Part shown: positions 10,722-38,169 of the stretch, one piece after another | Layout: each line of letters opens with the position of its first letter | How positions within the stretch are numbered: position 1 is the first letter of the stretch | Assembly: GCF_002933955.1 (NCBI RefSeq) | Contig: NZ_BEWW01000322.1 | Coordinates: 62,001 to 126,000 of the forward strand | DNA length: 64,000 nucleotides | DNA from: Prevotella sp. MGM2 | Lineage (GTDB): Bacteria; Bacteroidota; Bacteroidia; Bacteroidales; Bacteroidaceae | Reading direction: 5' to 3' | Translations under genes and position numbers: made by a program | The notes under the pieces: generated by a model | The model's input: only the letters and a program-made list of their open reading frames with translations | Told to the model about the DNA's origin: nothing | The model's database searches: none

Positions 10722-10773
10722 AAATGCCAATTCTAAGCAAAAACGCCAAACCAATAGCCACTAAACATCATAT

Positions 10774-10781: not shown

Positions 10782-10852
10782 CAAATACGCATTTCTTATG
10801 TAAATATCACAATCTAATAGATGAAATACCGTTTATTTTATGTAACTTTGCC

Positions 10853-10860
10853 TCAAAAGT
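10853..10860 (+). promoter_or_regulatory. -7 promoter box (TAACTTTG) for the AAA15/RloB operon
   Basis: Exact TAnnTTTG match, 8 bases before the ATPase start codon region. It implies a very short leader, or use of a slightly later start. It shows that the defence pair has its own promoter within the ICE. Confidence 0.4.
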
Positions 10861-10867
10861 AAATGAC

Positions 10868-12076: not shown

Positions 12077-12087
12077 ACTAGAATAAT

Positions 12088-19519: not shown

Positions 19520-19520
19520 C

Positions 19521-20165: not shown

Positions 20166-20183
20166 TCATTTAGGCAAAACAAT

Positions 20184-20435: not shown

Positions 20436-20472
20436 GCTACGAACATTTGTAGTCAAACTACTATATTATGTT

Positions 20473-21561
20473 ATGAATGACTTTGAAGAATATATAAGAC
20501 AAGGTGAGCCTCAAAAAAGAGAAAAAGGCTATGCTTGGCAAACAGCCATCGGATTGCAGGCGGTGGATGCCTTGAAGCCCTCGGAATATCTGATACAAAC
20601 GGCACGTCAGCATATTGAGGGCGATATAACTATCGAAGAAGCCAAACAGCTTATAGATAGTTATTATCAATCAAAGACCGTTAGAGCAGACATCGAAGAC
20701 AGAACAGAAGAAGCCGATAAGGTTTCAGCACGTATTGCCGAAATATTATCGGAGAAGACGTTTACATTTTCGCCCGTTGAGTATATCACCATTCATCGCC
20801 GCCTGTTCCAAGGCATCTATAAATTTGCAGGAAAGGTCAGGGATTACAATATCACCAAAAAGGAATGGGTGCTGAAAGGCGAAACTGTACTTTATGCCAG
20901 TGCCGACAGTATACGTGAAACGCTTGATTTCGATTTCATGCAGGAAAAGAATTTTAGCTATAAGGATTTGAACATCAATGATGCTATCACACACATCGCT
21001 AAGTTTATTTCCGGAGTTTGGCAGATTCACGCTTTCGGTGAGGGAAATACCCGTACAACGGCAGTGTTTACAATCAAATACCTGCGCACGTTTGGCTTCG
21101 ACATCAGCAATGAAGCGTTTGCCAATCACTCTTGGTATTTTCGTAACGCTTTGGTTCGAGCAAATTATAACAACTTGAGCAAAGGTATTTACGCTACCAC
21201 CGAATATATCGAAGCGTTCTTTAGAAACCTTATTCTTTCCGAGCATAACGAACTAAAGAACCGAGCAATGCTTGTGCAAGAACTTTCTGCCCAAGACATT
21301 CAAAGTGCAAACACGATAAAAGAAGTCTCTCCAAAGTGCAATATTTGCACTTTAAATTGCACTTTAGAAGAAATTGCCGTACTGAACTTCTTGCGAGAAC
21401 AGCCTAAAGCCACGCAAAAAGAAATTGCAGCGCATATAGGCAAATCTGAGAGAACAGTGAAGACCATTACCGTAAATTTGACCGAAAAAGGTATCATAGA
21501 GCGCAAAAATGGTAAAAGAAATGGCTTTTGGGAGATTATAACGAATGATTTAAACAGCTAA
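20473..21561 (+). CDS. Fic-domain protein with C-terminal winged helix
   Basis: A 362-aa protein. The Fic fold occupies about 70-250, with the core motif HAFGEGNTR (HPFxxGNxR family with Pro to Ala and Gly/Lys to Thr). About 290-362 form a winged-helix domain (TLEEIAVLNFLREQPKATQKEIAAHIG) that probably binds DNA. Fic proteins usually AMP-ylate or otherwise modify hydroxyl side chains. Family knowledge places such Fic-wHTH proteins in type I restriction loci of Bacteroidales; their role there is unsettled (regulator or toxin). Its last codons merge into the repeat that starts each following hsdS. Confidence 0.85.
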   Translation: MNDFEEYIRQGEPQKREKGYAWQTAIGLQAVDALKPSEYLIQTARQHIEGDITIEEAKQLIDSYYQSKTVRADIEDRTEEADKVSARIAEILSEKTFTFSPVEYITIHRRLFQGIYKFAGKVRDYNITKKEWVLKGETVLYASADSIRETLDFDFMQEKNFSYKDLNINDAITHIAKFISGVWQIHAFGEGNTRTTAVFTIKYLRTFGFDISNEAFANHSWYFRNALVRANYNNLSKGIYATTEYIEAFFRNLILSEHNELKNRAMLVQELSAQDIQSANTIKEVSPKCNICTLNCTLEEIAVLNFLREQPKATQKEIAAHIGKSERTVKTITVNLTEKGIIERKNGKRNGFWEIITNDLNS

Positions 21562-21571
21562 ATTCTCATTT

Positions 21572-22774
21572 ATGGAACAGTGGAAAGAATATCAATTAAA
21601 GGATGTAACCACCATTTTAGGTGATGGTTTACATGGAACTCCAGAATATGACGAAAATGGAACTGTGTTTTTCATCAATGGTAATAATCTTGTTGATGGG
21701 AAAATTGAGATAAAAGATTCAACAAAGCGTGTTTCAGAAGAAGAAGCTAATAAGTATAGGAAAAATCTAACCCAGCGAACTATATTCGTTTCTATCAATG
21801 GAACAATCGGCAATGTTGCAAAATATAAAGGAGAAGCATGTATTTTGGGCAAAAGTGCTTGTTACTTTAATGTGGCTGAAAATTTCGACTTGAATTTTAT
21901 ATATTATGTTGTAGCCTCGCAACAATTTAAAGATGCAATAACACGTTTAGCTACAGGTACTACAATTAAAAATGTATCATTGGAAACAATGAGGAATTAT
22001 TCATTTATGGCACCAAGCATAAATGAACAAAAACGCATCTCGTCTATCCTTTCTTCTCTCGACTCTAAAATTGAGCTGAACCGCCGGATAAATGATAATT
22101 TAGAGCAGCAGGCACAAGCGTTGTTCAAGGCTTGGTTCGTGGAATTTGAACCATTTGGAGGCACAATGCCAAGCAATTGGGAGATTTGCGAAGCTCAAAA
22201 ATACTTCAATATAAATATAGGGAAAACTCCTCCACGGAATGAAATGCGATGGTTTAGCCAAAAATCAACAGATTGTAAATGGGCCTCTATTTCAGATCTT
22301 GGCAAATGTGGACTTTTCATTAACGATACGTCTGAATATCTGACTAAGGATGCGGTAGAAACTTTTAATATAATCGTTGTGCCAAAAGGTACTATCTTGT
22401 TAAGTTTCAAACTCACGCTTGGACGAGTTTCAATAACAACTTGTCCACTTACAACAAATGAAGCTATTGCTCGATTCTTGATTAATCACGATTATGAACG
22501 AGAGTATTTGTATTTGCTTCTAAAGCAATTCGATTATACGTCTCTGGGTAATACATCATCTATTGCTACTGCTGTTAATTCTAAAATAATAAGAAGTATG
22601 CCGATAATGATGCCAACAGTTGATGTTCTACAGCGATTCCATCATATTGTTAGTCCTATTTTTACAAGAATGCGTTTTTTGTCGGATGAAATAATGCAGC
22701 TTACAGATACTCGTAACACAGTTCTCCCACAACTGATGTCGGGCGGGCTAAAAATTAACAATTTAAACTGCTAA
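21572..22774 (+). CDS. hsdS: Type I restriction specificity subunit, complete
   Basis: A 400-aa HsdS. The first target-recognition domain spans about 5-150 and the central helical spacer about 150-195 (LSSLDSKIELNRRINDNLEQQAQALFKAWF). The second recognition domain lies at about 205-365, and the distal helical repeat ends with TRNTVLPQLMSGG. This two-domain layout gives a bipartite target. The central spacer contains the junction core (22090-22102) and shares nearly all bases with the half cassettes. It is the only specificity gene here that looks full length, so it is probably the active one in this arrangement. Confidence 0.9.
   Translation: MEQWKEYQLKDVTTILGDGLHGTPEYDENGTVFFINGNNLVDGKIEIKDSTKRVSEEEANKYRKNLTQRTIFVSINGTIGNVAKYKGEACILGKSACYFNVAENFDLNFIYYVVASQQFKDAITRLATGTTIKNVSLETMRNYSFMAPSINEQKRISSILSSLDSKIELNRRINDNLEQQAQALFKAWFVEFEPFGGTMPSNWEICEAQKYFNINIGKTPPRNEMRWFSQKSTDCKWASISDLGKCGLFINDTSEYLTKDAVETFNIIVVPKGTILLSFKLTLGRVSITTCPLTTNEAIARFLINHDYEREYLYLLLKQFDYTSLGNTSSIATAVNSKIIRSMPIMMPTVDVLQRFHHIVSPIFTRMRFLSDEIMQLTDTRNTVLPQLMSGGLKINNLNC
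22090..22102 (+). repeat. hsdS cassette junction core, copy B
   Basis: AAATGATAATTTA inside the complete hsdS; preceded by T it reads as an imperfect palindrome, TAAAT-GATA-ATTTA. Flanks match copy A to the right and copy C to the left. Confidence 0.75.
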
Positions 22775-22784
22775 ATTCTCATTT

Positions 22785-23366
22785 ATGGAACAGTGGAAAG
22801 AATATAAAATATCTGAAATAATAGAAGAAATCGCAATGGGGCCTTTTGGCTCAAATATCAAAGTCGATAACTTTATTGACTCTGGTATTCCTGTCCTTAA
22901 TGGCTCAAATTTGCAGGGTATCAAATTAAATGAGGATTCGTTTAACTACGTTTCTGAAGAAAAAGCGGATACTCTTGGTAGAGCTAATGCCTTCAGGGGA
23001 GATGTTGTTATTACCCATAGAGGTACATTGGGGCAAATAGTGTATATACCTCTTGATTCGAAGTATGAAAGATATGTTATATCGCAAAGTCAATTTAGAT
23101 TGAAACTCAATAAGGATATTATAAGACCGGATTTCTTTGTATATTTTTTTCACACACGTTTGGGGCAGCATAGATTGTTGGTGAATGCTTCTCAAGTGGG
23201 AGTACCTGCATTAGCAAGGCCAACTTCCACCTTTAAGGAAGTATTTATTCCCGTCCCACCAATGGAAATGCAAAATAAAGTAATGGGCGTACTCCATTCT
23301 ATCGACTCAAAAATCGAGCTGAACCGCCGTATAAATGATAATTTAATTCCAACCTATTATGCCTAA
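22785..23366 (+). pseudogene. hsdS: hsdS N-terminal half cassette (one target-recognition domain)
   Basis: Codes for 193 aa: the shared start (MEQWKEYKI), one target-recognition domain, and the spacer SIDSKIELNRRINDNL. It then diverges right after the junction core (23333-23345) and ends with PTYYA. It is an N-terminal half missing the second recognition domain, the mirror image of the 19521 cassette. Half-size HsdS can dimerise in some systems, so function is not excluded, but storage for exchange is the simpler reading. Its stop overlaps the hsdR start by 8 bases. Confidence 0.75.
23333..23345 (+). repeat. hsdS cassette junction core, copy C
   Basis: AAATGATAATTTA where the N-terminal half ends. 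Homology to the complete hsdS stops immediately to the right, as expected for a recombination crossover site. Confidence 0.75.
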
Positions 23367-26300
23367 AACGTTCCATTTTACAGAAGATTCATACGAGCAG
23401 TCGATTATCTCCTTGTTCAAGGATATGGGCTATGAATATCATTATGGCCCGGAACTCGAATCCGATACCTGTCGAGAACTCACTGATGCTACCATACCGG
23501 GAGCATTACGCAAAGCAATGTTGATTATCAATGGAACAGACAAAACTGGAGCCGTTGACGAAGCTATCCGACAAATCCGTGAACTATTCAGCCAGCCTTT
23601 GGTTAGCGCAAACGTGACCCTTACCGACTGGTTACAAAATGGTTTGGACGTTACATTCAAAACCGGGCAAGGAACATTGCGCAGTGACCATATCAAAATA
23701 ATAGACCCTGTTAATATAGACAACAACTCATTTGTAGTTGCCAATCAATGGACGGTTGTAAACGGTAACTCCACCAAACGTGCTGACATCGTGGTGTTCG
23801 TCAATGGTCTGCCTGTCTCAGTCATTGAGTTAAAATCTCCTTCCCGTGAAGTTACCAATTCGGAGGAAGCACACCAACAGTTGCAGAACTATATGCGTAT
23901 CGTTCCACAACTCTTTACTGCTTGTCAAATGCTTGTGATAAGCGATATGGCTGATACTCGTGTGGGTACTATTACAGCCCCTCTTGACCGATATATGGAG
24001 TGGAAAACCACAGATGGAAGTTACGAAAGCACTGCATTTGCTGACTTTGAGACTTTTTTCAATGGCATCTTCACCAAACATCGCTTCATTGATATTATGT
24101 CAGATTTCACTCTTACAATGGGAGTGGATAAAAAAGTCCGTATACTTGCAGGCTACCATCAATATTTTGCCGTTAAGAAAGCTCTTGACTGCACAAAACA
24201 AGCCTTACAACGTAATGACGGTAAAATTGGTGTATTTTGGCACACACAAGGTTCTGGCAAGAGTCTTTCAATGGTATTCTATGCCCATCAACTTTTGAAA
24301 AATCTGCTGAGTGCCACCTTACTTGTATTGACCGACCGCCTCGATTTGAACGACCAACTGCATAACACTTTTGCGGCTTGTAGCGATTACTTACGCCAAA
24401 CGCCTATAAAGGCTACTGATGGCGAACACTTGTATGAACTGCTTGAAAAGCGTAAAAGTCATGGTATCATCTTTGCCAACATCCAAAAATTCAAAGACCG
24501 TGACAAACTGATTACCAATCGTTCTGATGTAATTGTGATTAGTGATGAAGCCCATCGTACACAATCAAACACAAGAACAAAGGTAGATACAGAAACCGGT
24601 GAACTAAAACTTGGCTTTGCGGCTATCGTACGTAAACTTTTGCCTCATGCTGCGTTCATCGGTTTTACAGGTACACCTATCGAGCAAGACGATAACGATA
24701 CAAGAGAAGTATTCGGCAACTATATTGACATCTACGACATGACCCAAGCCGTGGAAGACGGTGCCACTGTTCCTGTCTATTATGAAAGTCGCTTGTTAAA
24801 ATTGGATTTGGATGCCGATACGCTTAAATTGCTGGATAACGAGTATGAAAAGCTTGCGGAAGAAGGAGCAGAGGAACAGGACATCAAACGCTCCAAGGAT
24901 GAAAACGCACGTATTCATGCCCTACTCTCAGCACCACAAACTATCGATACCCTGTGTAAAGACATCATAGGTCACTACGAGAACAACCGTGCCGATTTGC
25001 TTACGGGCAAGGCTTTGATTGTGGCGATAGACCGTGCTACCGGAATTGATATTTACAAAAAGCTGATAGAACTTCGTCCTCAGTGGAAAGACATTATTTG
25101 TGTTGTCATGACACAAGGAAACCAAGATCCAGTGGAATGGAATGACATTATTGGCTCTGGCGCACGAAAAGAGGAACTGGCTCGTCAGTTCAAAGACAAC
25201 AATTCACCATTGAAAATCGCTATTGTCGTGGATATGTGGCTCACAGGTTTTGATGTACCTTCGCTTGCCACGATGTACGTTTACAAGCCCATGAAGGGGC
25301 ATAATCTGATGCAGGCTATTGCCAGGGTAAATCGTGTTTTCCCGGAAAAGAGCGGTGGTTTGGTGGTAGATTATATTGGCATAGCCAAGGCTCTTAAAAA
25401 AGCCATGCACGACTATACAGGACGTGACAAGAAACGCTTTGGTGACCCGAATATCAAGACTACCGCTTATCAGCAATTTGTTGCTGCACTAAAGCGTTGC
25501 CGTGAATGTATGGATGACTACGACTATTCAGCGTTTGCAGACTGTTCCAACTTGCAACGAGCCAATCTTATAAGAGGTGGTGTAAACGTGCTGCTTGACA
25601 AGAACAATCTTGTTTCCTCTCAACCTACCACCCAGACTGATGAAAACGGCAACATTATTTTAGTGGACTCCGTTCCTGCCGAAGCACAAAAGGTATTTAT
25701 GGAAGAAAGCAAACGTCTGGCACAAGCTGCATCGCTTTGTCGTAGCCTGCTGACTCCAGCGGAACGTTATGAAGAAGCATACTTTGAAGCGGTTAGGACA
25801 TTGCTTTTGCGCCTTACGGGAAACAAAAATATTACTCGAAAAATTATAGACGAGCGTATTACACAGTTGCTCAAAGTGGCTATCAAGGCTGACGGCGTGG
25901 TGGAAATACTCAGCACCAAAGGGACTGAATTTTCTCTTTTTGACGAGAATTTTTTGAAAGAGATTGCCGAGATGAAAGAGAAAAATTTTGCGCTCGAACT
26001 TCTCAAACGTTTACTTGAAGAACATATCAGGAAACATGCTAAAAAGAGAATGGTAGAAGCCGAAAAGTTTAGTGAAATGCTTGATGCCCGACTTGCCGAA
26101 TACTTGCGTGGCTTGATTTCCAACGAGGAGGTGATAAAAGAGTTGCTAAAAATGGCGCAGGAGCTGAAAGCGAATGCAGAGCAAGCATCAGAATTGGGAC
26201 TGACAGAAGAAGAACAAGCATTTTACGATGCTTTGACAAAACCACAAGCCGTAAGGGATTTCTACGAAAACGACCAACTTGTTGCGATGGCAAAGGAACT

Positions 26301-26484
26301 GACCGAAGCCTTACGCAGTAGCAAAACGATTGACTGGCGGCAGAAAGAGTCGGCTCGTGCCAAGATGCGCTCTATGGTGAAACGATTGCTCAAAAAGTAC
26401 AAATACCCACCAGAAGAACAAGAAGCTGCACTTGAAACAGTTATTCGTCAGTGTGAACTCTATGCAGATTCAGACGAAGTATAA
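23359..26484 (+). CDS. hsdR: Type I restriction endonuclease subunit HsdR
   Basis: A 1041-aa motor-nuclease. The N-terminal PD-(D/E)XK nuclease domain carries Asp143 (RADIVVF) and Glu157-x-Lys159 (VIELKS). The SF2 translocase follows, with Walker A HTQGSGKS (about 295-302), the DEAH box ISDEAHRTQ (about 393) and the GFTGTP motif III. The C-terminal helical part binds HsdM/HsdS. Length matches the family. With HsdM and HsdS it translocates and cleaves unmodified DNA. It directly overlaps the hsdS half cassette, so it is co-transcribed. Confidence 0.95.
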   Translation: MPKTFHFTEDSYEQSIISLFKDMGYEYHYGPELESDTCRELTDATIPGALRKAMLIINGTDKTGAVDEAIRQIRELFSQPLVSANVTLTDWLQNGLDVTFKTGQGTLRSDHIKIIDPVNIDNNSFVVANQWTVVNGNSTKRADIVVFVNGLPVSVIELKSPSREVTNSEEAHQQLQNYMRIVPQLFTACQMLVISDMADTRVGTITAPLDRYMEWKTTDGSYESTAFADFETFFNGIFTKHRFIDIMSDFTLTMGVDKKVRILAGYHQYFAVKKALDCTKQALQRNDGKIGVFWHTQGSGKSLSMVFYAHQLLKNLLSATLLVLTDRLDLNDQLHNTFAACSDYLRQTPIKATDGEHLYELLEKRKSHGIIFANIQKFKDRDKLITNRSDVIVISDEAHRTQSNTRTKVDTETGELKLGFAAIVRKLLPHAAFIGFTGTPIEQDDNDTREVFGNYIDIYDMTQAVEDGATVPVYYESRLLKLDLDADTLKLLDNEYEKLAEEGAEEQDIKRSKDENARIHALLSAPQTIDTLCKDIIGHYENNRADLLTGKALIVAIDRATGIDIYKKLIELRPQWKDIICVVMTQGNQDPVEWNDIIGSGARKEELARQFKDNNSPLKIAIVVDMWLTGFDVPSLATMYVYKPMKGHNLMQAIARVNRVFPEKSGGLVVDYIGIAKALKKAMHDYTGRDKKRFGDPNIKTTAYQQFVAALKRCRECMDDYDYSAFADCSNLQRANLIRGGVNVLLDKNNLVSSQPTTQTDENGNIILVDSVPAEAQKVFMEESKRLAQAASLCRSLLTPAERYEEAYFEAVRTLLLRLTGNKNITRKIIDERITQLLKVAIKADGVVEILSTKGTEFSLFDENFLKEIAEMKEKNFALELLKRLLEEHIRKHAKKRMVEAEKFSEMLDARLAEYLRGLISNEEVIKELLKMAQELKANAEQASELGLTEEEQAFYDALTKPQAVRDFYENDQLVAMAKELTEALRSSKTIDWRQKESARAKMRSMVKRLLKKYKYPPEEQEAALETVIRQCELYADSDEV

Positions 26485-26499: not shown

Positions 26500-28860
26500 A
26501 TGGAAGCTAAAGATAGAGAACAATTATATAACGATTTTCAAAAGGCATTCCCTCTAGAGAAATTGAAGGACATGACTTTGGAGCAATATACAAATTTGAA
26601 CAGGGAAGATTCATTTTGCTATTGGCTTGAATCAAAGACATCCGAATTAGGGTCAATATGGGGAGGTGCCGCCTATAAATTTGGTATATTCAAGTTCGAC
26701 AAATTTCCTAAGCAGGATAATGGGAAATATACACATGATGATAACTATTCTTGGAGTAGTCGTTTAGGCAGTACATCAGAAGAGGCATTTAACAATGTCA
26801 AGAATGCAATAGTGAAGATAGCTGAACACGCCAGTAATGCACAATGGAACGAAATTGAAAAGATAAACGAGTTGTGGCCTGTAACTACATGGAAGATTGC
26901 TTTCTTATATTCCAATATGTCCCTTGTCCCCATTTATAAACGGGATATGTTGGACACATTGGCAAGATATTTTAAGATAAACACCCTTAAAGGGAAAAAG
27001 ACATCTGACATACAGCAGTTCTTGATGAAGCAAAAAGGAGACAAAAACCTCTTTGTCTTCTATGGGGAACTTCTGAGTATTCTGGAAGCTGAAAATAAAA
27101 AGAAAACAGAAACAAAGCAGGAAATCAAATACTGGATTTGCGCACCGGGTGACCGTGCAAGTAAATGGGATTTATGCCAACAAGATAACATCATCAGTAT
27201 CGGATGGGACGAAATGGGCGATTATCGTCAATACCCATCTCTTGATGATGTAAAGAAACGTATGCAGACAATCTATGATAAGCCTGACGCATCATTTAAG
27301 AATGACAGTTTGGCCATTTGGCAATTCTGCAACGAAATGACCCCGGGAGATATAATATATGCCAAAGCCGGACAAAAGAAATTTGTCGGTCGTGGCATTG
27401 TGATGTCTGAATATATCTATAACGAAGATTATTCAGACTACATGAATGTCAGAAGGGTTAAATGGACGCATATTGGAGAATGGGAAGCTCCGCATAATAC
27501 AGTTCAAAAGACCCTGACTGACGTTACTCAATACACCAATTACGTTAGAACCTTGGAGGATATGTTTGAGGGTAAAGAATCCAGACGATATTGGTGGCTT
27601 GTGGCCAGTCCCAAAATATGGAGCTTTGACAAAATGAAAGTTGGTGAAGAACAAGATTATACGCTATATAATGATAATGGCAACCAACGACGGATATTTC
27701 AAAACTTTCTGGATGCTAAAGAAGGTGATTTGATAATAGGATATGAAGCCACTCCTACAAAGAAAATTGTAGCCTTAGCAGAAGTGTCAAAGGATACGGA
27801 TGACAAGTATTTCTATTTCAAAAAGACAGAAACATTGCTTTCTGCCATTGATTTCCTATCTATTAAGGAGAATCCTGTTTTTGCGGGGATGGAATTTTTC
27901 AAGAATATGAATGGTTCTTTATTCAAACTTTCCACAGATGAATACAAGGAACTGATGGATGTCATTCGGGAACAGAATCCAATTCGTACGGATGTAAAGT
28001 CGCAAAAGTATGAAAAAGAGAATTTCTTGTCTGACGTGTTCATGAACGAAGAGGAATACGACAAATTAACTATGCTTCTCAAAATGAAGAAGAATGTAAT
28101 TCTTCAAGGAGCACCCGGTGTGGGCAAGACTTATTCTGCCAAACGATTGGCTTATGCCCTAATGGGAGAAAAGGATGATTCCCGAATAGAATTTGTCCAG
28201 TTTCATCAGAACTACAGTTATGAAGATTTTATCATGGGCTACAAACCAAATGCAGAAGGAGGTTTTGAGTTGCGTAATGGTATTTTCTATAACTTCTGTA
28301 AGGTTGCTCAGAACAATCCAGAAAAGCAACATTTCTTTATTATTGATGAGATTAACCGTGGTAATCTGAGTAAAATCTTCGGAGAATTACTGATGCTGAT
28401 AGAAAGTGATTATCGCGATACAGAAATCAAATTGGCTTATAAGGACGAACTGTTTTCTGTCCCCAAAAATCTATACATCATCGGAATGATGAATACAGCT
28501 GATAGGAGTTTGGCTATGATAGACTACGCACTTCGTCGTCGTTTTAGCTTTTTCGAGATGAAACCCGGATTCGATTCTATAGGATTCATAAAGTACCAAA
28601 AAGAAGTTATAGGAGATACTTCTTTTGTTAAAGTCATAGATGGGATTAAGAACCTCAACGACACAATAGAAAAAGAGTTCGGAAGAGGATTCTGTATCGG
28701 GCACAGTTTTTTCTGTAAGCCTAATACAGAAACATATACCATTGCATGGCTGAAGAATGTGATAGAGTTTGACATTAAACCCATGATTCTTGAATATTGG
28801 TTCGACAATGAAAAGAAAGCCCAACAGGAGATTGACAAACTAACTCTTTTACTTCAATGA
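26500..28860 (+). CDS. mcrB: McrB-type GTPase with two N-terminal EVE domains
   Basis: A 786-aa protein. Residues 1-200 are a helical region. About 205-335 (KYWICAPGDRASKWDLC) and about 362-495 (RRYWWLVASPKIWSFDKM) are two tandem PUA-like EVE domains, a fold that reads modified bases. The McrB AAA+ GTPase begins about 515, with Walker A GAPGVGKT (537-544) and the McrB signature MNTADRSL (about 666). It should recognise modified DNA and drive the McrC nuclease. It follows hsdR by 15 bases and overlaps mcrC (ATGA). Confidence 0.9.
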   Translation: MEAKDREQLYNDFQKAFPLEKLKDMTLEQYTNLNREDSFCYWLESKTSELGSIWGGAAYKFGIFKFDKFPKQDNGKYTHDDNYSWSSRLGSTSEEAFNNVKNAIVKIAEHASNAQWNEIEKINELWPVTTWKIAFLYSNMSLVPIYKRDMLDTLARYFKINTLKGKKTSDIQQFLMKQKGDKNLFVFYGELLSILEAENKKKTETKQEIKYWICAPGDRASKWDLCQQDNIISIGWDEMGDYRQYPSLDDVKKRMQTIYDKPDASFKNDSLAIWQFCNEMTPGDIIYAKAGQKKFVGRGIVMSEYIYNEDYSDYMNVRRVKWTHIGEWEAPHNTVQKTLTDVTQYTNYVRTLEDMFEGKESRRYWWLVASPKIWSFDKMKVGEEQDYTLYNDNGNQRRIFQNFLDAKEGDLIIGYEATPTKKIVALAEVSKDTDDKYFYFKKTETLLSAIDFLSIKENPVFAGMEFFKNMNGSLFKLSTDEYKELMDVIREQNPIRTDVKSQKYEKENFLSDVFMNEEEYDKLTMLLKMKKNVILQGAPGVGKTYSAKRLAYALMGEKDDSRIEFVQFHQNYSYEDFIMGYKPNAEGGFELRNGIFYNFCKVAQNNPEKQHFFIIDEINRGNLSKIFGELLMLIESDYRDTEIKLAYKDELFSVPKNLYIIGMMNTADRSLAMIDYALRRRFSFFEMKPGFDSIGFIKYQKEVIGDTSFVKVIDGIKNLNDTIEKEFGRGFCIGHSFFCKPNTETYTIAWLKNVIEFDIKPMILEYWFDNEKKAQQEIDKLTLLLQ

Positions 28861-29903
28861 GTGTGAATAAGAACATATTCATCAAGAATATCTACTATAT
28901 GTTGGCATACGCTTTCCAAGAGTTGCAACGTAATCAGTATGAAGATATTCAGAGTGAGGATTTCGACGAGATACATCAATTGCTTGCCGAAATTCTCATT
29001 CATGGTGTATCGTTTCAGTTAAAAAAAGGTCTGCACAAGGAGTACATTTCTAAAACTGAATCTATAGCATCAGTGAAAGGGAAAATAGATATACCGGGCA
29101 CTGTGCAGCACCTTATGCAGAGAAAAATGCGTATATCATGCCAGTATGATGAATTGTCAGAAAATTGTCTATTTAACCAAATCATTAAAACAACATGTGA
29201 GATACTTTTATCACATCCATCTGTAAAGACTAGCCAGAAATTTACGATTAAACGTCTAATGCTTTTCTTTTCAGAAGTGAATGAAATACCCCCTCTTTCT
29301 ATTAAGTGGAACTTGTTGCGTTATGATAGAAACAGTAGAACATATCAAATGTTGCATTATATCTGCTTCTTCATTATTGACAATATGATACTGACAAGCC
29401 AAGAAGGGAAATTCAAAATGAGTCGCTTTTCTGATGAGCATATGTGCAGATTATATGAAAAGTTTGTCTTAGAGTATTATCGAAAGGAACATCCCGAAAC
29501 AAAAGCCCGTGCAGCTCAAATCAAATGGAATATTGACGAACAGCTATCAACAACGGATATATTACCCATACTCCAAACAGACATCTATCTTACACTAAAA
29601 GATAGAACACTTATAATTGATACGAAGTATTATAGTCAAACTATGCAGGAGCATTTTGATAAGGTAAGTATTCACAGTGCTAACCTTAACCAAATACTTG
29701 TCTATGTTTTAAATGAAGATGATAATATGCAGGGGAAAGTAGATGGAATGCTGCTATATGCAAAGACAGATGAAGATATTGTACCTGATGGTCAATTAAA
29801 ATGGAAGACTGGTAGCACTATATATTTCAGGACACTTGACTTAGGTGTTGATTTTAAGTATATTCGCAAACAACTGGATGATTTTTTAATCACTAAATCA
29901 TAG
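28857..29903 (+). CDS. mcrC: McrC-type endonuclease subunit
   Basis: A 348-aa McrC partner. The N-terminal domain (1-120) is followed by the PD-(D/E)XK nuclease region. The acidic Asp lies in PILQTDIYLTL (about 240), followed by the IIDTKYY segment (about 255) with the Asp-x-Lys pair typical of the family. It starts at ATGA overlapping the McrB stop, so the two are made together. The EVE-McrB/McrC pair forms a modification-dependent restriction system that complements the type I system. Confidence 0.9.
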   Translation: MSVNKNIFIKNIYYMLAYAFQELQRNQYEDIQSEDFDEIHQLLAEILIHGVSFQLKKGLHKEYISKTESIASVKGKIDIPGTVQHLMQRKMRISCQYDELSENCLFNQIIKTTCEILLSHPSVKTSQKFTIKRLMLFFSEVNEIPPLSIKWNLLRYDRNSRTYQMLHYICFFIIDNMILTSQEGKFKMSRFSDEHMCRLYEKFVLEYYRKEHPETKARAAQIKWNIDEQLSTTDILPILQTDIYLTLKDRTLIIDTKYYSQTMQEHFDKVSIHSANLNQILVYVLNEDDNMQGKVDGMLLYAKTDEDIVPDGQLKWKTGSTIYFRTLDLGVDFKYIRKQLDDFLITKS

Positions 29904-29928
29904 TTTTAGATGAAACCAACAATCCATA

Positions 29929-30603
29929 ATGAAGAATAAAATGTCAAGAGCACCCATCTTTACCATCAGCAGGCTCCGTATGGGGACAGACGGACATGGA
30001 GTAACCACGCTTGTCGCTTTCATGGGGTGCCCACTCAAATGCAAGTATTGCCTGAATGAGAAATGCCATGAGCCGATATACGAAGATGATGGAAAGACTC
30101 TGAGGAATGGTATTATGCTGCTTACTCCAAGTGAGTTGTATGATTTGGTAAAGATTGACAACATCTATTTTCAAGCAACAGACGGAGGCATTTGTTTTGG
30201 AGGTGGAGAACCGACATTATATCCAGAGTTTATTGAGGAATTCTGTGACCTTTGTAACGAAAAATGGAAGATTACAATAGAAACTTCGTTGCGCTGTTCC
30301 GGTGAAACTATCAGGAAATTAAGCAAGGCAATAGATTACTGGATTGTGGATGTCAAATCTTTAGATTCGGATACATATTCTTCATACACACGTGTATCAT
30401 CTATGATAGAACAGCATTTGACGATACTGAAACGATGCGTTACGGATAAACAAGCAACGATTAAAGTGCCTATCATTCCCGGATTCAATAACGAAAGTGA
30501 AGCAGATAGAACCGCCGAAGACATCAAAAAAAGGTTTAGGTTTACCAATGTAGTTAAGATTAGATATATAACAAAATATTGTTGTCCAACAAAAATTGAT
30601 TAA
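29929..30603 (+). CDS. Radical SAM protein (activating-enzyme-like) within the defence island
   Basis: A 224-aa short radical SAM protein. The CxxxCxxC cluster is Cys34, Cys38 and Cys41 (GCPLKCKYCLN), a GGGEPT motif for SAM binding lies near 88, and the C-terminus resembles pyruvate-formate-lyase/nucleotide-reductase activating enzymes (PIIPGFNNE). It starts 25 bases after mcrC. Why a radical SAM enzyme should follow McrBC is unclear: it could modify a nucleotide or protein, or activate a glycyl radical enzyme, but no such target is next to it. A nucleotide-modifying role would fit a defence setting; this is a guess. Confidence 0.8.
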   Translation: MKNKMSRAPIFTISRLRMGTDGHGVTTLVAFMGCPLKCKYCLNEKCHEPIYEDDGKTLRNGIMLLTPSELYDLVKIDNIYFQATDGGICFGGGEPTLYPEFIEEFCDLCNEKWKITIETSLRCSGETIRKLSKAIDYWIVDVKSLDSDTYSSYTRVSSMIEQHLTILKRCVTDKQATIKVPIIPGFNNESEADRTAEDIKKRFRFTNVVKIRYITKYCCPTKID

Positions 30604-30648
30604 TGAAATAACTCCAGTTGCAACATAGGTTTACAAAATAATAGAAAT

Positions 30649-31527
30649 ATGACATCAAGAAAGAATAGCGATGAACACTATGTCATCGATTTATGCGATG
30701 AAGTTCTTGGTTTAAAAGCATCAAGGCAGCAGACTTTTGACTTTCTGCGTGGCGATGGGAATCCCGGAAAGAAACTTCCTGTTGATGCGTATTATCCCCA
30801 ATTAAAACTCGTTGTAGAATATAAGGAGCGGCAACACACAGAATCGGTGGCTTTCTTCAACAAGAAAACCACTGTGAGTGGTGTATGTCGCGACGAACAG
30901 CGACGTATTTATGACCAGCGACGCAGGGACGTTCTGCCCAAGCACGGTATTAAACTGATTGAAATATCATACACTGACTTTAAGTATGACAACCATAAAC
31001 GCCTCATTCGTAATCGACAAGCAGACATGGCTGAAATACGAAGAATACTTTCAAAGACTCAAAATGAAAATCAAAAAGTTGAACATAAAAATACAGATAA
31101 GCAGACAAAAAAAGATGAAAGAAACAATCTAAGGAGTAAAACACCTGTAAAAGATGGAAGACATACTTGGGTTTACTCTGCATATAGTAAGTTTGGCTGC
31201 CTGTTTATATTGGCAGTTGTCTTTTGTACACTATTGATTTCATCTTATCTCACTATATCTGTTTTCGATTTTAACGAAGGTTTATCATTAATAATTATGT
31301 TTTTCTCTTTATTTGTAGTATCATTCATTTTTCATCACTACACAACAGGGGTGGATGAAAAGTTGGATAAGGAAAAATATAAAAGAAAAGAAGTATCTTC
31401 TATTTATAGTAGTACGAACCATAATCCTGTCTGCTGTCCCCAATGTGGAAGTCATACTATAGGTCTGTCAGATAATGGAGGATTCGTCTGTATAGACTGT
31501 GGGGTGCAGTGGTATCAAACATATTAA
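30649..31527 (+). CDS. Putative membrane-anchored nuclease with C-terminal zinc ribbon
   Basis: A 292-aa protein with three parts. Residues 1-115 form a VSR/PD-(D/E)XK-like region with PVDAYYPQLKLVVEYKERQH, i.e. Asp then Glu-x-Lys, and a later DQRRRDVLPKHGIKLIEI segment typical of very-short-patch-like folds. About 116-165 are a charged linker. Two hydrophobic helices follow at about 182-205 and 214-232. The end is a four-Cys zinc ribbon CCPQCGSH...CIDCGVQW. A nuclease held at the membrane with a zinc finger could attack incoming DNA at entry. This is inference from domain order; I know of no named system with this exact plan. Confidence 0.65.
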   Translation: MTSRKNSDEHYVIDLCDEVLGLKASRQQTFDFLRGDGNPGKKLPVDAYYPQLKLVVEYKERQHTESVAFFNKKTTVSGVCRDEQRRIYDQRRRDVLPKHGIKLIEISYTDFKYDNHKRLIRNRQADMAEIRRILSKTQNENQKVEHKNTDKQTKKDERNNLRSKTPVKDGRHTWVYSAYSKFGCLFILAVVFCTLLISSYLTISVFDFNEGLSLIIMFFSLFVVSFIFHHYTTGVDEKLDKEKYKRKEVSSIYSSTNHNPVCCPQCGSHTIGLSDNGGFVCIDCGVQWYQTY

Positions 31528-31659
31528 CTATCATAGAAGAACTGTTTCGGGATTGTGGAGGGAGTCCGTTCCTTATCCAATTATGCCTCAAAATCATAAA
31601 TTTTCCACAAAAAAGTTTACCAGACAGCGATAATTACAGAACATTATAAAAATAAGGTC

Positions 31660-32805
31660 ATGAGTACAGGAAAAGAAAAATGCGAAATGCTAAAAGCAAT
31701 CAGAAAACAGATTGCAGAACGATACAACTTAGAGTACACACCATCAGAATGCACTCACAAAGGAAATTGCCTTGGTACATGCCCTAAATGCGATGCCGAA
31801 CTCCGTGACCTTCAAGAACAGTTAGAACGAAGAGGAATAACGGATATTGATTGGAATGTGGAAATTCCCGAAGAGGAAAGTAGTGTAGATCCAGAGGATT
31901 CTGCCCGCTCTATTCTGCAAGGTGATGTTGAATCACCGAAAGAGCCTGAATTGATAAAAGTAACAATGGGGATGCCCGCTCCTCCATACCTATATAGAGA
32001 TAAAAAACGCGTTCTCTACAAGGAGTGTCAGGTAGCAGGTATTACGTTCCATAACCTTGAAGAAGTTTGGGATGAGTTATATGAGGGGGCTGAACTTGCA
32101 TTAGTCAGAGAAAAAGACAACAAGCACGACAAATATGCTATTGCCGTAGCCTTGGCCGATGATTATGATGGGGAACCGGATGACTTTGATTTTGACTACA
32201 TCTTGGGATATGTACCTCGGTCGGATAATAAGGATTTGGCTGACATGATGGATATGGGTTGGGCAGAAGCTTTTGAATGTGAGCTTAGTCAGGTCAACGG
32301 TTCTAACCCCTATAAGGGAAGTCTGTGGATGAAGATATACATCGTCAGCAAAGACGAGGAAGAATATGAGAATACAGAACACCTGTTGCATGCCATGGAA
32401 CTGGATGATGAAGCATACGAAGAGTTTACCACTTGCATAGAAAATCATGGCTGTGCTTATTTTAGGTGGGGAGGTTTCCAACCGTGTGAATACCACAATT
32501 TCCCAAAGAAAGGCGATAAAGTTGTATTCATACACAAAGGAGAAAATATCTCAGAATTATATCTAATGTATTGCATAGCTGTAGGCGATGATAATGCAGC
32601 CTACTTCGTAGAGGACAAAACCTCATTACATGCTATTGATGACAGTTGCTATTATGTGTTCACTACCATTCACGGCCCACTAAAGGTAAGCAATAATCAA
32701 ATTTCTTTTCTTGAAGATGAGATTGTTTGCGATATTCAAGCTGATGAATACCTTTCAGAAAATGCTTCGACCAAACTACAACTATTATTTGATAGCAGGA
32801 AATAA
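31660..32805 (+). CDS. HIRAN-domain protein with N-terminal Cys motif
   Basis: A 381-aa protein. The N-terminal CTHKGNCLGTCPKCDAEL (about residues 31-48) is a cysteine motif seen on several Bacteroidales proteins, probably metal-binding. About 115-215 match a HIRAN domain (ECQVAGITFHNL, ALVREKDNKHDKYAIAV, LGYVPRSDN), a fold that binds single-stranded or 3' DNA ends. The C-terminal 150 residues are not recognised. Its stop is 2 bases before the next start, so the pair is translationally coupled. The HIRAN part would recognise damaged or free DNA ends. Confidence 0.75.
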   Translation: MSTGKEKCEMLKAIRKQIAERYNLEYTPSECTHKGNCLGTCPKCDAELRDLQEQLERRGITDIDWNVEIPEEESSVDPEDSARSILQGDVESPKEPELIKVTMGMPAPPYLYRDKKRVLYKECQVAGITFHNLEEVWDELYEGAELALVREKDNKHDKYAIAVALADDYDGEPDDFDFDYILGYVPRSDNKDLADMMDMGWAEAFECELSQVNGSNPYKGSLWMKIYIVSKDEEEYENTEHLLHAMELDDEAYEEFTTCIENHGCAYFRWGGFQPCEYHNFPKKGDKVVFIHKGENISELYLMYCIAVGDDNAAYFVEDKTSLHAIDDSCYYVFTTIHGPLKVSNNQISFLEDEIVCDIQADEYLSENASTKLQLLFDSRK

Positions 32806-32807
32806 AT

Positions 32808-34214
32808 ATGATAGGCACAATTATTGGTGATTTGGCGGCTTGGACGTATGAGAATGAGAGAGAAACATTTTGGAATCAACTCATATCATACAACTATGAT
32901 AAAGTTGAGTTGTCCCTATATGCTCATGCTTATTTGCAAGCAGTCAGCATAAATGTACTTAGTGTACCCAATCAAAATGTCAACATAGTAAGGAATACAG
33001 AATGGTCACCCGAAGAATGGCTAAGAGTTGGCGGACAGTGGTTGATGTGGCAACTTATGTGTGCTTGGAATGACAACTTGGTTTACCCGAATGGTAACGA
33101 GAAACTTCCTTCTGTAGAAAAGGAGGAATACTATGCTCGAATGTTTATGGTAGGACTTATCAGAAAACTCCGACATGGCTACACTAAAAGCGATGCTTAT
33201 CACTCTGACGAAATGTTTGTAGATTTTAGCAAACATTGGAAATGGAAACCTTGGCAAGAATCTATTTCAGAAAAAGATAATTATAGCATCCTTACCTGTG
33301 TGTTTCGTGCTTGGGACTCTTTCTATAGAGGCTTTGATTTCACCTCCTCCATTCATAACGCAATGAAATGGGAAGGAAATAGACATCTTATAGCTATGCT
33401 TACCGCTTCGTTTGCAAGTGCCATGTATGGTTGCCAATACAATCTTATCAAGAAGAAATTTGCGAAGAACGGACAAATAAGCCACTTGTTTGAATTGTAT
33501 TGCTTAGGCGAACATTTTGGCTATCATCATGCCTTATGTCACGAAATGATGGACGAAAACAACGGATTCAGGACATTTTACCCCAAGAATAGAGCTTTAA
33601 CAAACGTGGAACGTCATTTTTGGCAAAGTGTAGCAAACCCTTTTGACCGTCTTATATTTTCAGAATCAGATTATAAAAACATAATGAAGTGCTCACCGAC
33701 GGGATGGGATAACAGATATGGCTTATATTTGGATGATGGATGGTTCTATGTATATAGGAGTGGATGCCTAATAGGACGTTTCATGTTAATAGAAGAAGAT
33801 GGCTATTGGCTGATAAAGAACGTACAATTATCGGGCGAACAACCATGGAGAGAGTTTTGTAATGCCTTATTCTGTGCGTTGACAGAAAGCTGCAACTTAC
33901 GTGGATTTTCAGGAAAATATGAAGATTATGCTTCAATATTCAAGTATTATCAAGGAGAACTGACCTGTCCAGAAAAGTGGAAAAATAACGTATCAGGAAA
34001 GTTTTGGCACGGAGAAATGATGTTCTGCACTAATCATATCAGCATTGAAGAGTGGACGAAAAAAGCCGAGAATGCTCTCAAAAATATGGAACCCGATAAA
34101 CAGAAATACGCAAAATCCATGTCTCTTCGTCAGTTTGGTGTGATATTATTTATTGAAACCCTATATAGTAAATGGTGTTCTTACGATAATATGGATTGGA
34201 TATATGAGTATTAG
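32808..34214 (+). CDS. ADP-ribosylglycohydrolase-like protein, active-site acids degenerate
   Basis: A 468-aa protein. The N-terminus MIGTIIGDLAAWTYEN matches the family start GxxxGDxxG. The region EGNRHLIAMLTASFASAMYG (about 197-216) corresponds to the GDTD-AAIAGALAGA signature, but the usual Gly-Asp-x-Asp is not preserved. About 30 Trp residues and a C-terminal extension are unusual. It may be a binding rather than a hydrolysing form. Coupled to the HIRAN protein by a 2-base gap. ADP-ribose-related proteins occur in several defence systems, which makes the pair worth testing together. Confidence 0.5.
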   Translation: MIGTIIGDLAAWTYENERETFWNQLISYNYDKVELSLYAHAYLQAVSINVLSVPNQNVNIVRNTEWSPEEWLRVGGQWLMWQLMCAWNDNLVYPNGNEKLPSVEKEEYYARMFMVGLIRKLRHGYTKSDAYHSDEMFVDFSKHWKWKPWQESISEKDNYSILTCVFRAWDSFYRGFDFTSSIHNAMKWEGNRHLIAMLTASFASAMYGCQYNLIKKKFAKNGQISHLFELYCLGEHFGYHHALCHEMMDENNGFRTFYPKNRALTNVERHFWQSVANPFDRLIFSESDYKNIMKCSPTGWDNRYGLYLDDGWFYVYRSGCLIGRFMLIEEDGYWLIKNVQLSGEQPWREFCNALFCALTESCNLRGFSGKYEDYASIFKYYQGELTCPEKWKNNVSGKFWHGEMMFCTNHISIEEWTKKAENALKNMEPDKQKYAKSMSLRQFGVILFIETLYSKWCSYDNMDWIYEY

Positions 34215-36571: not shown

Positions 36572-37579
36572 ATGAAACACGCTGAATTTAAGGCTATAGC
36601 CAGACAACATCAAATAGATTTCAAGGTCAATGACCCGGAGATTAACATTGCCGCTGATAGATTTCCTATCCGTACTATTCGGAAGAACGGCAAGAAATAT
36701 AAGATAGAGGTAAAAAGTTCTTTAACTTGGAAGGATTGCCGTGATGAGCATAACCTTTATCGCATTTTCTTCAGCGGATTCCGAAAAGAGATAACGGAAG
36801 AAGTTGACAAAGAAGCTTCTTTGACAAAAGGGCAAATGGTTACAAATCTTTTGCGCAGCGAACACATCCCATACAACGTATTCTTTCCCATGCGACATGA
36901 CCTGGATGGGACAGCCCGCCTGTTCAATCGTATTCTCGGAGAGGAACGAATAGCTACCATCAGCCAGATACTTGTTGAGCATAACCCCGGAGGGCTTAAA
37001 GATGGCACATCCTTTGATGTTTACATCGAATATGCTCCCATGGGAGCAAATCCCGGTGAGAAGGGCGGCATTGGCATTGAGGTGAAATACACGGAAAAGG
37101 AGTATCTTATCAAGCATGGCACGAAAGAATGGGAAGAAACACATAATGCTTCCGGCATTCATCTTGCAGACAATTACAGCAACCCAAGCAATGCCTGCGG
37201 CTGGTTCAAACCGGAGTTTATAGCAGACGTACCGTTTGAAGACAAAGAGAGGATGACATCCCATGTGACAGCCAACCGTTACCGCCAGATATGGCGCAAC
37301 CACATTCTTGGTGCATCCATGATACTCGGATTGTGCGAGAACCAAGATGATAAACTTACGGAGTTTACAAGTCTCACGGTTTATCCCAAAGGAAACGGGC
37401 ATTTCTCGGAAATCTGGGGCGAATACGAATCCAAGCTGACTCCGGCCGGATTGCAAACATTCAAGCACATCACCTACGAAGATCTGTTCCCCTTGATGCA
37501 GGAGTGTCTGAATGAAGCCAACATTCCTAATCTCAATGAGTGGATGGATTACCTTAACAGACGATATATCATAAAATGA
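36572..37579 (+). CDS. PD-(D/E)XK nuclease-like protein (PGN_0703-like)
   Basis: A 335-aa protein. Residues about 145-175 hold a nuclease-type core: FDVYIEY (Asp149, Glu153) and GIGIEVKYTEKEY (Glu170-x-Lys172), as in the putative restriction endonuclease family represented by PGN_0703. The rest is mixed alpha/beta with a C-terminal helical part. No methyltransferase is nearby, so it is not a simple R-M pair. The next gene, a metallophosphoesterase, overlaps it by 4 bases (ATGA), so the two form a unit. Possible roles are DNA cleavage in defence or processing of transferred DNA. Confidence 0.65.
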   Translation: MKHAEFKAIARQHQIDFKVNDPEINIAADRFPIRTIRKNGKKYKIEVKSSLTWKDCRDEHNLYRIFFSGFRKEITEEVDKEASLTKGQMVTNLLRSEHIPYNVFFPMRHDLDGTARLFNRILGEERIATISQILVEHNPGGLKDGTSFDVYIEYAPMGANPGEKGGIGIEVKYTEKEYLIKHGTKEWEETHNASGIHLADNYSNPSNACGWFKPEFIADVPFEDKERMTSHVTANRYRQIWRNHILGASMILGLCENQDDKLTEFTSLTVYPKGNGHFSEIWGEYESKLTPAGLQTFKHITYEDLFPLMQECLNEANIPNLNEWMDYLNRRYIIK

Positions 37580-38169
37580 GAATTTTACACCTATCAGATA
37601 CTCACGGTTGCCATCATCGGCTATACGACTTGCCCGAAGCGGACATTCTTGTCCATTCTGGTGATTTCACTATGTCAGGAAGCGAGAAGGAAGCCCTTGA
37701 CTTCTTGAACTGGTTTTGTGACCTCCCATATCCGCACAAGATATTCATCTGTGGTAACCATGATGAATGTCTGTATGGGGCAAACATCAGTGGCCTTAAC
37801 AACAATGTCCATTATCTATGCAATTCCGGTTTGGAAATTGAAGGTTTGAAGTTCTATGGTGTACCCATGTTCATGAGTGACTGCATCAGTGACCGACAAA
37901 ACCGGAACTATGCCGAAATACCTTCCGATACCGATGTGTTGATAACGCATTGTCCGCCATACGGCATATTAGACTTTGATGATAACATAAACTACGGCTC
38001 GGAAGAATTGTTGCAACGGATTACACAGATTCATCCACGGCTGCACTTGTTTGGGCATATACATATACAACATGGAATTACCCATAATGGCGCAACCACA
38101 TTTTCCAACGGTGCCATTATGAACGTAGATTATTCTCAACTCAATGATGCTAATCTGATAGAGCTATAA
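37576..38169 (+). CDS. Calcineurin-like metallophosphoesterase
   Basis: A 197-aa protein with all family motifs: LSDTHG (Asp8, His10), SGDF (Asp32), CGNHDE, THCPPYG and FGHIHIQHG. It binds two metals and hydrolyses phosphoesters; small members of this family act on nucleotides, RNA or DNA ends. It is translationally coupled to the PD-(D/E)XK-like gene, so a nuclease-plus-phosphatase unit is likely. A long inverted repeat follows directly. Confidence 0.9.
   Translation: MRILHLSDTHGCHHRLYDLPEADILVHSGDFTMSGSEKEALDFLNWFCDLPYPHKIFICGNHDECLYGANISGLNNNVHYLCNSGLEIEGLKFYGVPMFMSDCISDRQNRNYAEIPSDTDVLITHCPPYGILDFDDNINYGSEELLQRITQIHPRLHLFGHIHIQHGITHNGATTFSNGAIMNVDYSQLNDANLIEL

Follow-up and report, generated by a model that had tools for sequence, protein, structure and literature searches.

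What do a HIRAN-domain gene and an ADP-ribosylglycohydrolase-like (ARH-like) gene do side by side in a defence island? The two genes lie in a 64,000-nucleotide stretch of the gut bacterium Prevotella sp. MGM2 (contig NZ_BEWW01000322.1, positions 62,001 to 126,000), here called the window. An earlier note, made from the sequence alone, held it plausible that in this pair a DNA-end sensor meets an ADP-ribose-related effector or binder. We find that the unit is larger than the HIRAN-ARH pair, and that the pair itself is loose. Sequence comparisons or structural models show the domain make-up of the genes, their order in a second, diverged locus, the ARH fold, the loss of its catalytic acids and the pairing of the HIRAN protein's N-terminal Cys domain with a radical SAM enzyme. 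We favour, tentatively and as a possible rather than a probable answer, the reading that the pair forms the far end of a Type IV-restriction-like operon of five to six genes. In it, a reader of nucleic acid with a radical SAM partner and a pseudoenzyme that recognises ADP-ribose would inform the McrBC nuclease. The genes of this block are as follows.

26500..28860, + strand: McrB-like GTPase with an EVE domain, 786 aa, opening the conserved block (PF07728 86.6 bits, PF01878 EVE 35.8 bits)
28857..29903, + strand: McrC-like nuclease subunit, 348 aa (PF10117 109.1 bits), overlapping the McrB gene by 4 bp
29929..30603, + strand: radical SAM protein, glycyl-radical-activase-like, 224 aa (PF04055 57 bits; CxxxCxxC and GGE kept)
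30649..31527, + strand: protein with a PvuRts1-like N-terminal domain, 292 aa (PF21598 19.0 bits, below the Pfam cut-off)
31660..32805, + strand: Cys-domain/HIRAN/PUA-like protein, 381 aa (Pfam and a structural model)
32808..34214, + strand: ARH-like pseudoenzyme, 468 aa (PF03747 matches of relatives and an AlphaFold2 model)

The last two open reading frames (ORFs) share a strand and are 2 bp apart, as the earlier note had it. Its description of the surroundings as a defence island also holds, with a type I restriction-modification (RM) locus, the EVE-McrB and McrC genes and the PvuRts1-like gene (the last scoring below the Pfam cut-off) nearby. The first two genes of the block have the make-up of McrBC Type IV restriction, an AAA+ GTPase McrB, here with EVE, and a McrC with PF10117. 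The order McrB, McrC, radical SAM, HIRAN, ARH-like is kept with short gaps in Bacteroides sp. ET71 (L073), where the five proteins are 58, 51, 58, 64 and 36% identical to those of the window. An identical copy of the block lies on a contig of Prevotella sp. MGM1 (L068). The PvuRts1-like gene is missing from L073, and a 60% identical homologue occurs in another locus (L072), 23 bp upstream of an ARH-like gene. Behind its N-terminal domain this protein appears by eye to have two transmembrane-like segments and a zinc ribbon, with zinc-ribbon models below cut-off, and it matches the PADLOC mREase_II model at 18.9 bits.

The HIRAN protein falls into three parts.

31660..31839, + strand: N-terminal Cys domain (residues 1-60), comprising a helix, the Cys loop C31-C44 and a helix; a module of radical-SAM-linked proteins
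31996..32358, + strand: HIRAN domain (residues 113-233), from Pfam, structural matches and alignment
32371..32802, + strand: probable C-terminal PUA-like domain (residues 238-381), from predicted-structure matches, without Pfam recognition

The HIRAN domain that the earlier note recognised matches PF08797 at 35.9 bits, above the cut-off of 24.7, over residues 123-204. Its modelled fold resembles 3k2y (Z 13.7) and the HIRAN domain of human HLTF (Z 9.5). HIRAN domains of eukaryotic relatives bind DNA ends. Residues N154 and D157, invariant in all 13 aligned proteins, presumably correspond to those with which HLTF holds a DNA 3' end. Residues 238-381 match ASCH (5y6c, Z 9.0), the YTH domain of Mmi1 (5h8a, Z 8.8), 1zce (Z 8.5), 2eve (Z 8.0) and the VcaM4I restriction endonuclease (Z 7.9); EVE entries fall at Z 8.0-8.5, at moderate model confidence and without a Pfam match. 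This part is probably a PUA-like domain of the EVE/ASCH/YTH kind, resembling readers of modified bases; we call it only probable because the model, built from 6 sequences, has a mean pLDDT of 67.4. EVE-type domains are described as binding modified bases (PMC11090510).

The Cys motif at the start of the protein, also seen in the earlier note, reads C-x5-C-x3-C-x2-C at residues 31-44, preceded by C8. G4, C8, L11, R15, C31, C37, G39, C41 and C44 are kept in all 42 distinct Cys-domain sequences, a result that for the four motif cysteines and G39 holds by construction, as the collection pattern demanded the former and nearly demanded the latter. Among the proteins scanned, no Pfam or NCBIfam model matched this domain. 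An iron-sulphur (Fe-S) or zinc assignment by similarity was tried and dropped, with no useful PDB profile match (best E 0.074).

Which neighbour, then, belongs to the HIRAN gene? In 399 genomes of the window's family we counted 13 HIRAN genes of this type, 12 of them long; the thirteenth (G634) encodes 226 aa, with a Cys-like start and HIRAN and without the PUA part. The broken pieces in G639 and short stand-alone HIRAN proteins were left out. Eight of the 13 have an adjacent radical SAM gene (G000, G701, G691, G444, G515, G712, G755 and G523), and all eight carry the Cys motif. Among the other five, the Cys domain is missing from two (G402, G613) and degenerate in one (G467), while G634 keeps the cysteine spacing but not the GT between the cysteines and G398 is intact; these two break the rule that joins Cys motif and radical SAM gene. 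An ARH-like gene adjoins HIRAN, or lies one gene away, in three of the 13 (G000, G701, G402), and a NADAR gene adjoins HIRAN or its radical SAM gene in two (G444, G398). The radical SAM gene, which the earlier note did not mention, is the firmer partner.

The pairing of radical SAM enzyme and Cys domain extends beyond HIRAN proteins. Of 45 genomes with an orthologue of the radical SAM gene (E<=1e-38), 43 have a Cys-domain match (E<=1e-8) within 3 kb; in the two exceptions it lies on a different contig (G565) or is absent at that threshold (G657). Conversely, the radical SAM gene is present in 44 of the 49 genomes with a Cys-domain match. Both parts form a single protein in G616, which is among the 43, and in G135, a genome of another family (L170 3903-4826 and L155 796-1686, respectively); here the radical SAM part leads directly into the Cys domain at the C-terminus, and there is no third part. 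Such fusions suggest that the enzyme works together with the Cys domain, which would then be more than a substrate tag. The Cys motif belongs to the radical SAM pairing, not to DNA-end sensing. In wider samples, the domain was found in four of 198 genomes of the order (the window's own, another of its family and two of other families) and in one of 148 of the phylum, again the window's own. In the two genomes of other families, a radical SAM domain lies within 1.5 kb flanks for one of the three Cys matches of G025 and for the single match of G135.

Of the 42 distinct Cys-domain sequences, 30 come from proteins other than HIRAN proteins, and in 28 of these 30 a hydrophobic segment follows the domain. 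Scans of four such proteins gave a TonB C-terminal domain in the first and a below-cut-off match to the start of SusC/RagA in the second, identified the third as a serpin (259 bits) and left the fourth without a match. At L131 (4862-8340), L132 (3712-7911) and similar Bacteroidaceae loci, tandem Cys-domain proteins with the hydrophobic segment are followed by a radical SAM gene; the SusC/RagA match belongs to one of these arrays. They are apparently an undescribed radical-SAM/Cys-domain system of Bacteroidaceae. The gene for the serpin, which also begins with the Cys domain, is the immediate neighbour of a radical SAM gene (L098 7677-9742; Pfam Serpin).

In the radical SAM enzyme itself, CxxxCxxC and GGE are kept in 42 of 42 distinct homologues. 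The best NCBIfam match of the window's protein is to the glycyl-radical-enzyme activases (TIGR02494, 112.8 bits), below the cut-off of 174.35, and all five radical SAM proteins scanned fall below every NCBIfam cut-off shown. Identity as a viperin was rejected on low scores (PADLOC 31.2 bits; NCBIfam viperin 26.1 against a cut-off of 180).

ADP-ribose-type domains recur around the HIRAN genes in more than one form. In Segatella copri Indica (L081), an ARH-like part (matching query residues 1-348) is fused to a radical SAM domain (PF04055 49.5 bits, residues 380-547), and a Cys-HIRAN gene follows. In L090 and L160, a NADAR gene (187 and 186 bits) lies directly before the radical SAM gene; the L160 contig ends 147 bp into the Cys gene. 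In L091, a 543-aa ORF with a C-terminal NADAR precedes Cys-HIRAN. The N-terminal part of this ORF is macro-domain-like by eye, with no Pfam call, and its middle clearly matches the N-terminal extension of the L092 radical SAM protein (35% over 104 residues, E 2e-11). The three NADARs are 89-98% identical. NADARs are reported to undo guanine ADP-ribosylation of DNA and RNA (PMC11125620, PMC11833690). When L081, L143/L144 (as one), L145 and L160 are added to the 13 genes, an ADP-ribose-type domain lies near HIRAN in seven of 17 loci, a count biased by L081, which was reached by searching for ARH. Searches for the HIRAN protein gave one record in the plasmid set and two in the phage set, all with Cys-domain matches only; both phage records hold a relative of the radical SAM protein.

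The second protein of the pair also falls into several parts.

32808..33575, + strand: ARH-fold domain (residues 1-256) by model (2yzw Z 15.5, root-mean-square deviation 3.8, 213 aligned)
32913..32924, + strand: catalytic motif 1 position, with SLYA in place of the TDDT of active ARHs, from the family alignment
33372..33389, + strand: catalytic motif 2 position, with EGNRHL in place of the GGDSDT of active ARHs, from the family alignment
33633..33908, + strand: beta-rich domain (residues 276-367), weakly KA1-like (5wi2 Z 5.5), conserved across the ARH-like family alignment
33918..34211, + strand: mobile C-terminal domain 'KYYxGE' (residues 371-468, ~98 residues), from occurrences in other contexts

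No Pfam ADP_ribosyl_GH match was found in the window's ARH-like protein. Its homologue L026/L076 exceeds the PF03747 cut-off (30.4 against 26.2 bits); of six homologues scanned, four lie below it and one has no match, and the L081 fusion scores 17.6 bits, also below. The AlphaFold2 model, built from 20 sequences, has a mean pLDDT of 79.8 and a pTM of 0.78. In a structural ranking (VIA-align), the top 21 rows and 23 of the best 24 are ARH entries; the only other, at rank 22, is a chain of the trypanosomal mitochondrial small-subunit (mt-SSU) assembly complex. In its predicted structure the protein has an ARH fold. The unrelated fold that the earlier note gave as grounds for abandoning the idea is not what we find. 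A chance 'ARH-like start' is ruled out by fold and profile evidence together. A library of viral folds gave nothing at E<=0.001 for this model; its best entry, at 0.041, was a Marseillevirus ADP-ribosylglycohydrolase.

The earlier note had also remarked that the usual acidic signature is missing. In active ARHs, the acidic pairs TDDT and DxDT bind metals. We compared 19 members of the ARH-like family with three genuine ARHs (L006, L030, L032). Across the family TDDT has become S-x-x-x, and GGDSDT mostly xG[N/D]xxL. The first D of motif 1 is acidic in 12 of the 19 members and the second in one; for motif 2 the counts are nine and none. None of the four D positions is acidic in the window's protein, which therefore lacks the acidic pairs of active ARHs. 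Because the second aspartate of both motifs is lost, removal of ADP-ribose by this family is unlikely. Family-specific residues, D8, S36, Y109, K127, W169 and Y314 among others, are invariant in 20 sequences. Elsewhere, the KYYxGE domain stands free after the genuine ARH gene of L006, forms a fusion with a LigT/2H phosphoesterase in L028 and is part of proteins of 292-299 aa (L030, L031, L032, L035). The radical SAM proteins of L092/L093 have an N-terminal extension of 119 aa that was considered as a possible copy of this domain; BLASTP found no match between the two, and hhalign one of 35 columns only, at 77.8% probability. A further free-standing KYYxGE ORF (8854-9165 of L036, in a segment spanning 1412-9165) lies ~2 kb from a Cas9 gene (RuvC_III 182 bits, HNH_4), near which genes look by eye like cas1 and cas2.

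Is HIRAN, in turn, the usual partner of ARH-like genes? A genome scan gave 21 ARH-like loci, all in Bacteroidales. HIRAN is directly upstream in two of them, one being L068, the identical copy of the window's locus; it is directly downstream in one (L081) and downstream with one gene between in another (L082). On these counts and those around HIRAN, an obligate HIRAN+ARH pair was rejected. An upstream ORF on the same strand lies within 120 bp in 19 of 22 ARH-like loci, the 22 being 20 of the 21 scan loci (the L068 copy left out), the window and L167; in L167 and L082 this ORF is only a short mechanical one, and L083 and L086 are near-duplicates. The partners encoded include a PvuRts1-like protein (L072), a PDDEXK nuclease (L077), a GIY-YIG T5orf172 protein (L080), an endonuclease/exonuclease/phosphatase (L088), leucine-rich repeat plus RNase_T (L085), WYL (L084), an integrase (L083) and HIRAN (window, L073). 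In six loci (L070, L071, L074, L076, L078, L069) the upstream gene has no convincing domain. A WYL gene adjoins the ARH-like gene in L084, and an HD gene does so in L082.

Defence genes near ARH-like genes include BREX (L069, L167), DrmD-like and type IIG genes (L070) and a type I methyltransferase (L083); the neighbours tested in L085 and L076 had no PADLOC match at 1e-10. One contig (L022; G515:C235) carries a stop-interrupted ARH-like gene together with genes for NADAR, an ADP-ribosyltransferase (ART)-like protein (below cut-off), a microbial PARG and a LigT phosphoesterase; the NADAR, ART-like and PARG genes stand side by side at 877-2737. The idea that ARH-like genes are phage genes was rejected, as a family-profile scan of viral contigs confirmed no relative; an earlier scan had returned one locus, L006, for the C-terminal domain only. 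The single match in the phage set, MT836602.1 (L167), bears the label Bacteriophage sp. but is probably a conjugative element: beside the ARH-like gene and BREX genes it has homologues of the TraG-type gene of the window and of that gene's neighbours. The plasmid set gave no ARH-like relative.

The earlier proposal of a DNA-end sensor with an ADP-ribose effector thus survives in part. The HIRAN domain, the ARH fold, the lost acids and the island all speak for it, whereas we find no support for HIRAN and ARH as the defining pair. The independent scattering of the two genes that the note named as fatal is not complete either, given the three of 13 HIRAN genes with an ARH-like gene beside or one gene away.

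How might the block work? The HIRAN-PUA protein would be a nucleic-acid reader, gripping DNA 3' ends, a modified base or both. Its Cys domain may dock the radical SAM enzyme, which would then activate or modify the reader, or share an Fe-S cluster with it. The ARH-like protein would have lost hydrolysis of ADP-ribose and kept its binding, either free or on nucleic acid; in sister loci NADAR, a hydrolase family, may take this ADP-ribose-recognising role. Together these parts would alert the McrBC nuclease to phage nucleic acid that is modified, possibly by ADP-ribosylation, or to ADP-ribosylation damage by phage or toxin.

Several described systems resemble parts of this block. McrBC Type IV systems (E. 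coli McrBC; CoCoNuT census, PMC11090510) share the adjacent EVE-McrB and McrC genes and the modified-base theme; unlike them, the window's block adds radical SAM, Cys-HIRAN-PUA and ARH-like genes downstream, and the term 'radical' does not occur in the main text of the census. The closest published proposal found is that of the ARG-centred systems of Iyer et al. 2022 (PMC9503650), in which, as here, an ADP-ribosylglycohydrolase (ARG) domain stands without a coupled transferase. These systems are listed with WYL, HD and restriction endonuclease partners, calcineurin-like phosphatases and, through ARPP, HIRAN. They rest, however, on an ARG that removes ADP-ribose, whereas the window's ARH domain has lost the catalytic acids; the radical SAM partner and Cys domain are not among the features described for them in the main text, where 'bacteroid' is also absent. 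Of their Nudix/WYL regulator, phosphatase and chaperone partners, none was called in 26500-34214; a calcineurin-like gene lies 3.4 kb downstream. DarT operons and stand-alone NADARs (PMC11125620, PMC11833690) share the ADP-ribose-handling domain, present in the sister loci as NADAR. Unlike in DarT operons, the NADAR neighbour in L090, L091 and L160 is a radical SAM gene, Cys-HIRAN or both, with no recognised ADP-ribosyltransferase; nor do we find the transferase beside a hydrolase that marks DarT-NADAR and DarTG, with none among nine window genes scanned and the ART-like gene of L022 below cut-off. HIRAN-HipA/diDNase clusters (PMC11706625) likewise place a HIRAN protein in defence-rich mobile islands, but differ in architecture, and neither HipA nor diDNase was found among the nine genes. 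Glycyl-radical-enzyme activases (TIGR02494) share the sequence class, CxxxCxxC and GGE with our radical SAM proteins, which differ in lying below cut-offs in the five cases scanned and in having a Cys-domain protein as partner. Prokaryotic viperins (pVip) share the defence setting of a radical SAM enzyme and a weak PADLOC match, but the window's protein matches activases better. In titles and abstract openings of open-licence PMC articles, we found no paper that joins radical SAM with HIRAN, with McrBC and Bacteroides, with serpin and Bacteroides, with Bacteroidales and TonB, or with NADAR.

The Type IV-restriction-like reading draws on the order kept in L073, the L081 fusion, the radical SAM/Cys pairing, the NADAR swaps, the reader-like folds, the lost acids and the ADP-ribose and defence settings. 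Several observations weigh against it. Its chief weakness is that independent copies of the block are few: two with McrBC, one ARH-radical SAM fusion and one NADAR lineage. McrBC lies beside HIRAN in only two of the 17 loci compared (window, L073), several of which are on short contigs, and the phage-like contigs L143-L145 carry the radical SAM-HIRAN pair with no McrBC or ARH-like genes in the stretch examined. L091/G398 and L169/G634 keep the motif cysteines, yet no radical SAM relative was found in these genomes at E<=1e-15. The model behind the PUA-like and Cys-domain assignments is of moderate confidence, and Foldseek alone gave no match at E<=0.001 for the ARH-like model (best 0.042, an ARH immunity-pair entry). 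Residual activity is possible in some relatives, given the 12 and nine members noted above in which an acidic residue persists at the leading D of motif 1 and motif 2. A scan of nine window genes gave no ADP-ribosyltransferase. ARH-like genes mostly have other partners, so the protein may be a general accessory. This last point is the core of the chief rival, which makes the ARH-like protein an accessory in its own right, or a partner of antitoxin type, transferred singly behind any nuclease or nucleic-acid gene, where it would bind and restrain or stabilise the upstream product, HIRAN being one of many. We think this somewhat doubtful. The close upstream ORF in 19 of 22 loci, with a partner that differs by locus, is what it expects, but the ARH-radical SAM fusion beside HIRAN and the block order across deep divergence in L073 argue for a specific link, and other upstream genes are non-nuclease by Pfam, such as the integrase of L083, or have no convincing domain.

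A clean-up role, as in the ARG-centred systems, would have the proteins reverse or neutralise damage by an ADP-ribosyltransferase of a phage or rival, with HIRAN/PUA as the guide to damaged DNA. The NADAR swap, the ART-like, PARG and NADAR genes on one contig with an ARH-like gene, and the HD and WYL neighbours, which PMC9503650 also describes (section 3.8), fit this idea. It is nonetheless unlikely in our view: the second aspartate is gone from both catalytic motifs, and the idea has no place for the radical SAM partner, a term absent from the main text of that article. It may instead be that the radical SAM-Cys pair is a protein-maturation module of Bacteroidaceae unrelated to defence, whose HIRAN version merely rides mobile elements. 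The prevalence of non-HIRAN carriers with a hydrophobic segment, and the TonB, SusC/RagA-start and serpin proteins among them, suit such a module. We nevertheless regard it as quite improbable, as HIRAN versions lie on the window's conjugative-type element, on phage-like contigs (L143-L145) and beside McrBC, NADAR and ARH-like genes. A bolder reading can also be imagined, though we expect it to hold with low probability: a new class of nucleic-acid surveillance, in which radical SAM activates Cys-HIRAN-PUA as a reader of DNA ends or modified bases, a dead ARH or a NADAR gives specificity for ADP-ribosylated nucleic acid, McrBC is one of several exchangeable effectors, and the Cys/radical SAM pairing also serves envelope-type and serpin proteins in Bacteroidaceae. 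On this reading the pairing would be a general means of protein modification, so far undescribed, that was taken up by defence genes.

The block travels with other cargo. A TraG/type IV secretion system (T4SS) coupling protein is encoded at 48774-51083 (Pfam PF02534, 59.8 bits), with more tra-type genes, named by eye only, up to ~61 kb; the element looks like a conjugative element. Its cargo runs in the order type I restriction, EVE-McrB, McrC, radical SAM, PvuRts1-like, HIRAN, ARH-like, RecD2, a PDDEXK_13 nuclease and a calcineurin-like phosphoesterase. Members outside the block are listed here.

16942-18480: HsdM of the type I RM locus, defence-island member
21572-22774: HsdS of the type I RM locus, defence-island member
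23359-26484: HsdR of the type I RM locus, defence-island member
37576-38169: calcineurin-like phosphoesterase, 3.4 kb downstream of the block

Besides several hsdS-like genes, the type I RM locus holds, at 18527-23366, genes for a tyrosine recombinase (PF00589 128 bits) and a Fic protein (20473-21561, PF02661 46.4 bits); its specificity is possibly invertible. An ATPase gene (AAA_21) at 10724-12076 is paired with an RloB-like gene (67.7 bits) within 10724-12660. On L143/L144 an ATPase gene follows radical SAM and Cys-HIRAN (L143 7312-11080), its product 31% identical to that of 10724-12076. Homologues of RecD2 (74-82% identical; window segment 34309-38169) adjoin HIRAN in L097 (5191-9994) and ARH-like in L078 (549-4128), so that a link between the module and the RecD2/nuclease segment is possible.

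If the Type IV-restriction-like reading is right, radical SAM chemistry would be coupled to a DNA reader and to ADP-ribose recognition within one restriction-like operon, linking Type IV restriction, nucleic-acid ADP-ribosylation and radical SAM maturation; we found no literature in open-licence PMC text that links the three. The roles of NADARs outside DarT operons have been called unclear (PMC11125620), and the sister loci offer a concrete setting for them. The radical SAM/Cys-domain pair of Bacteroidaceae also becomes testable.

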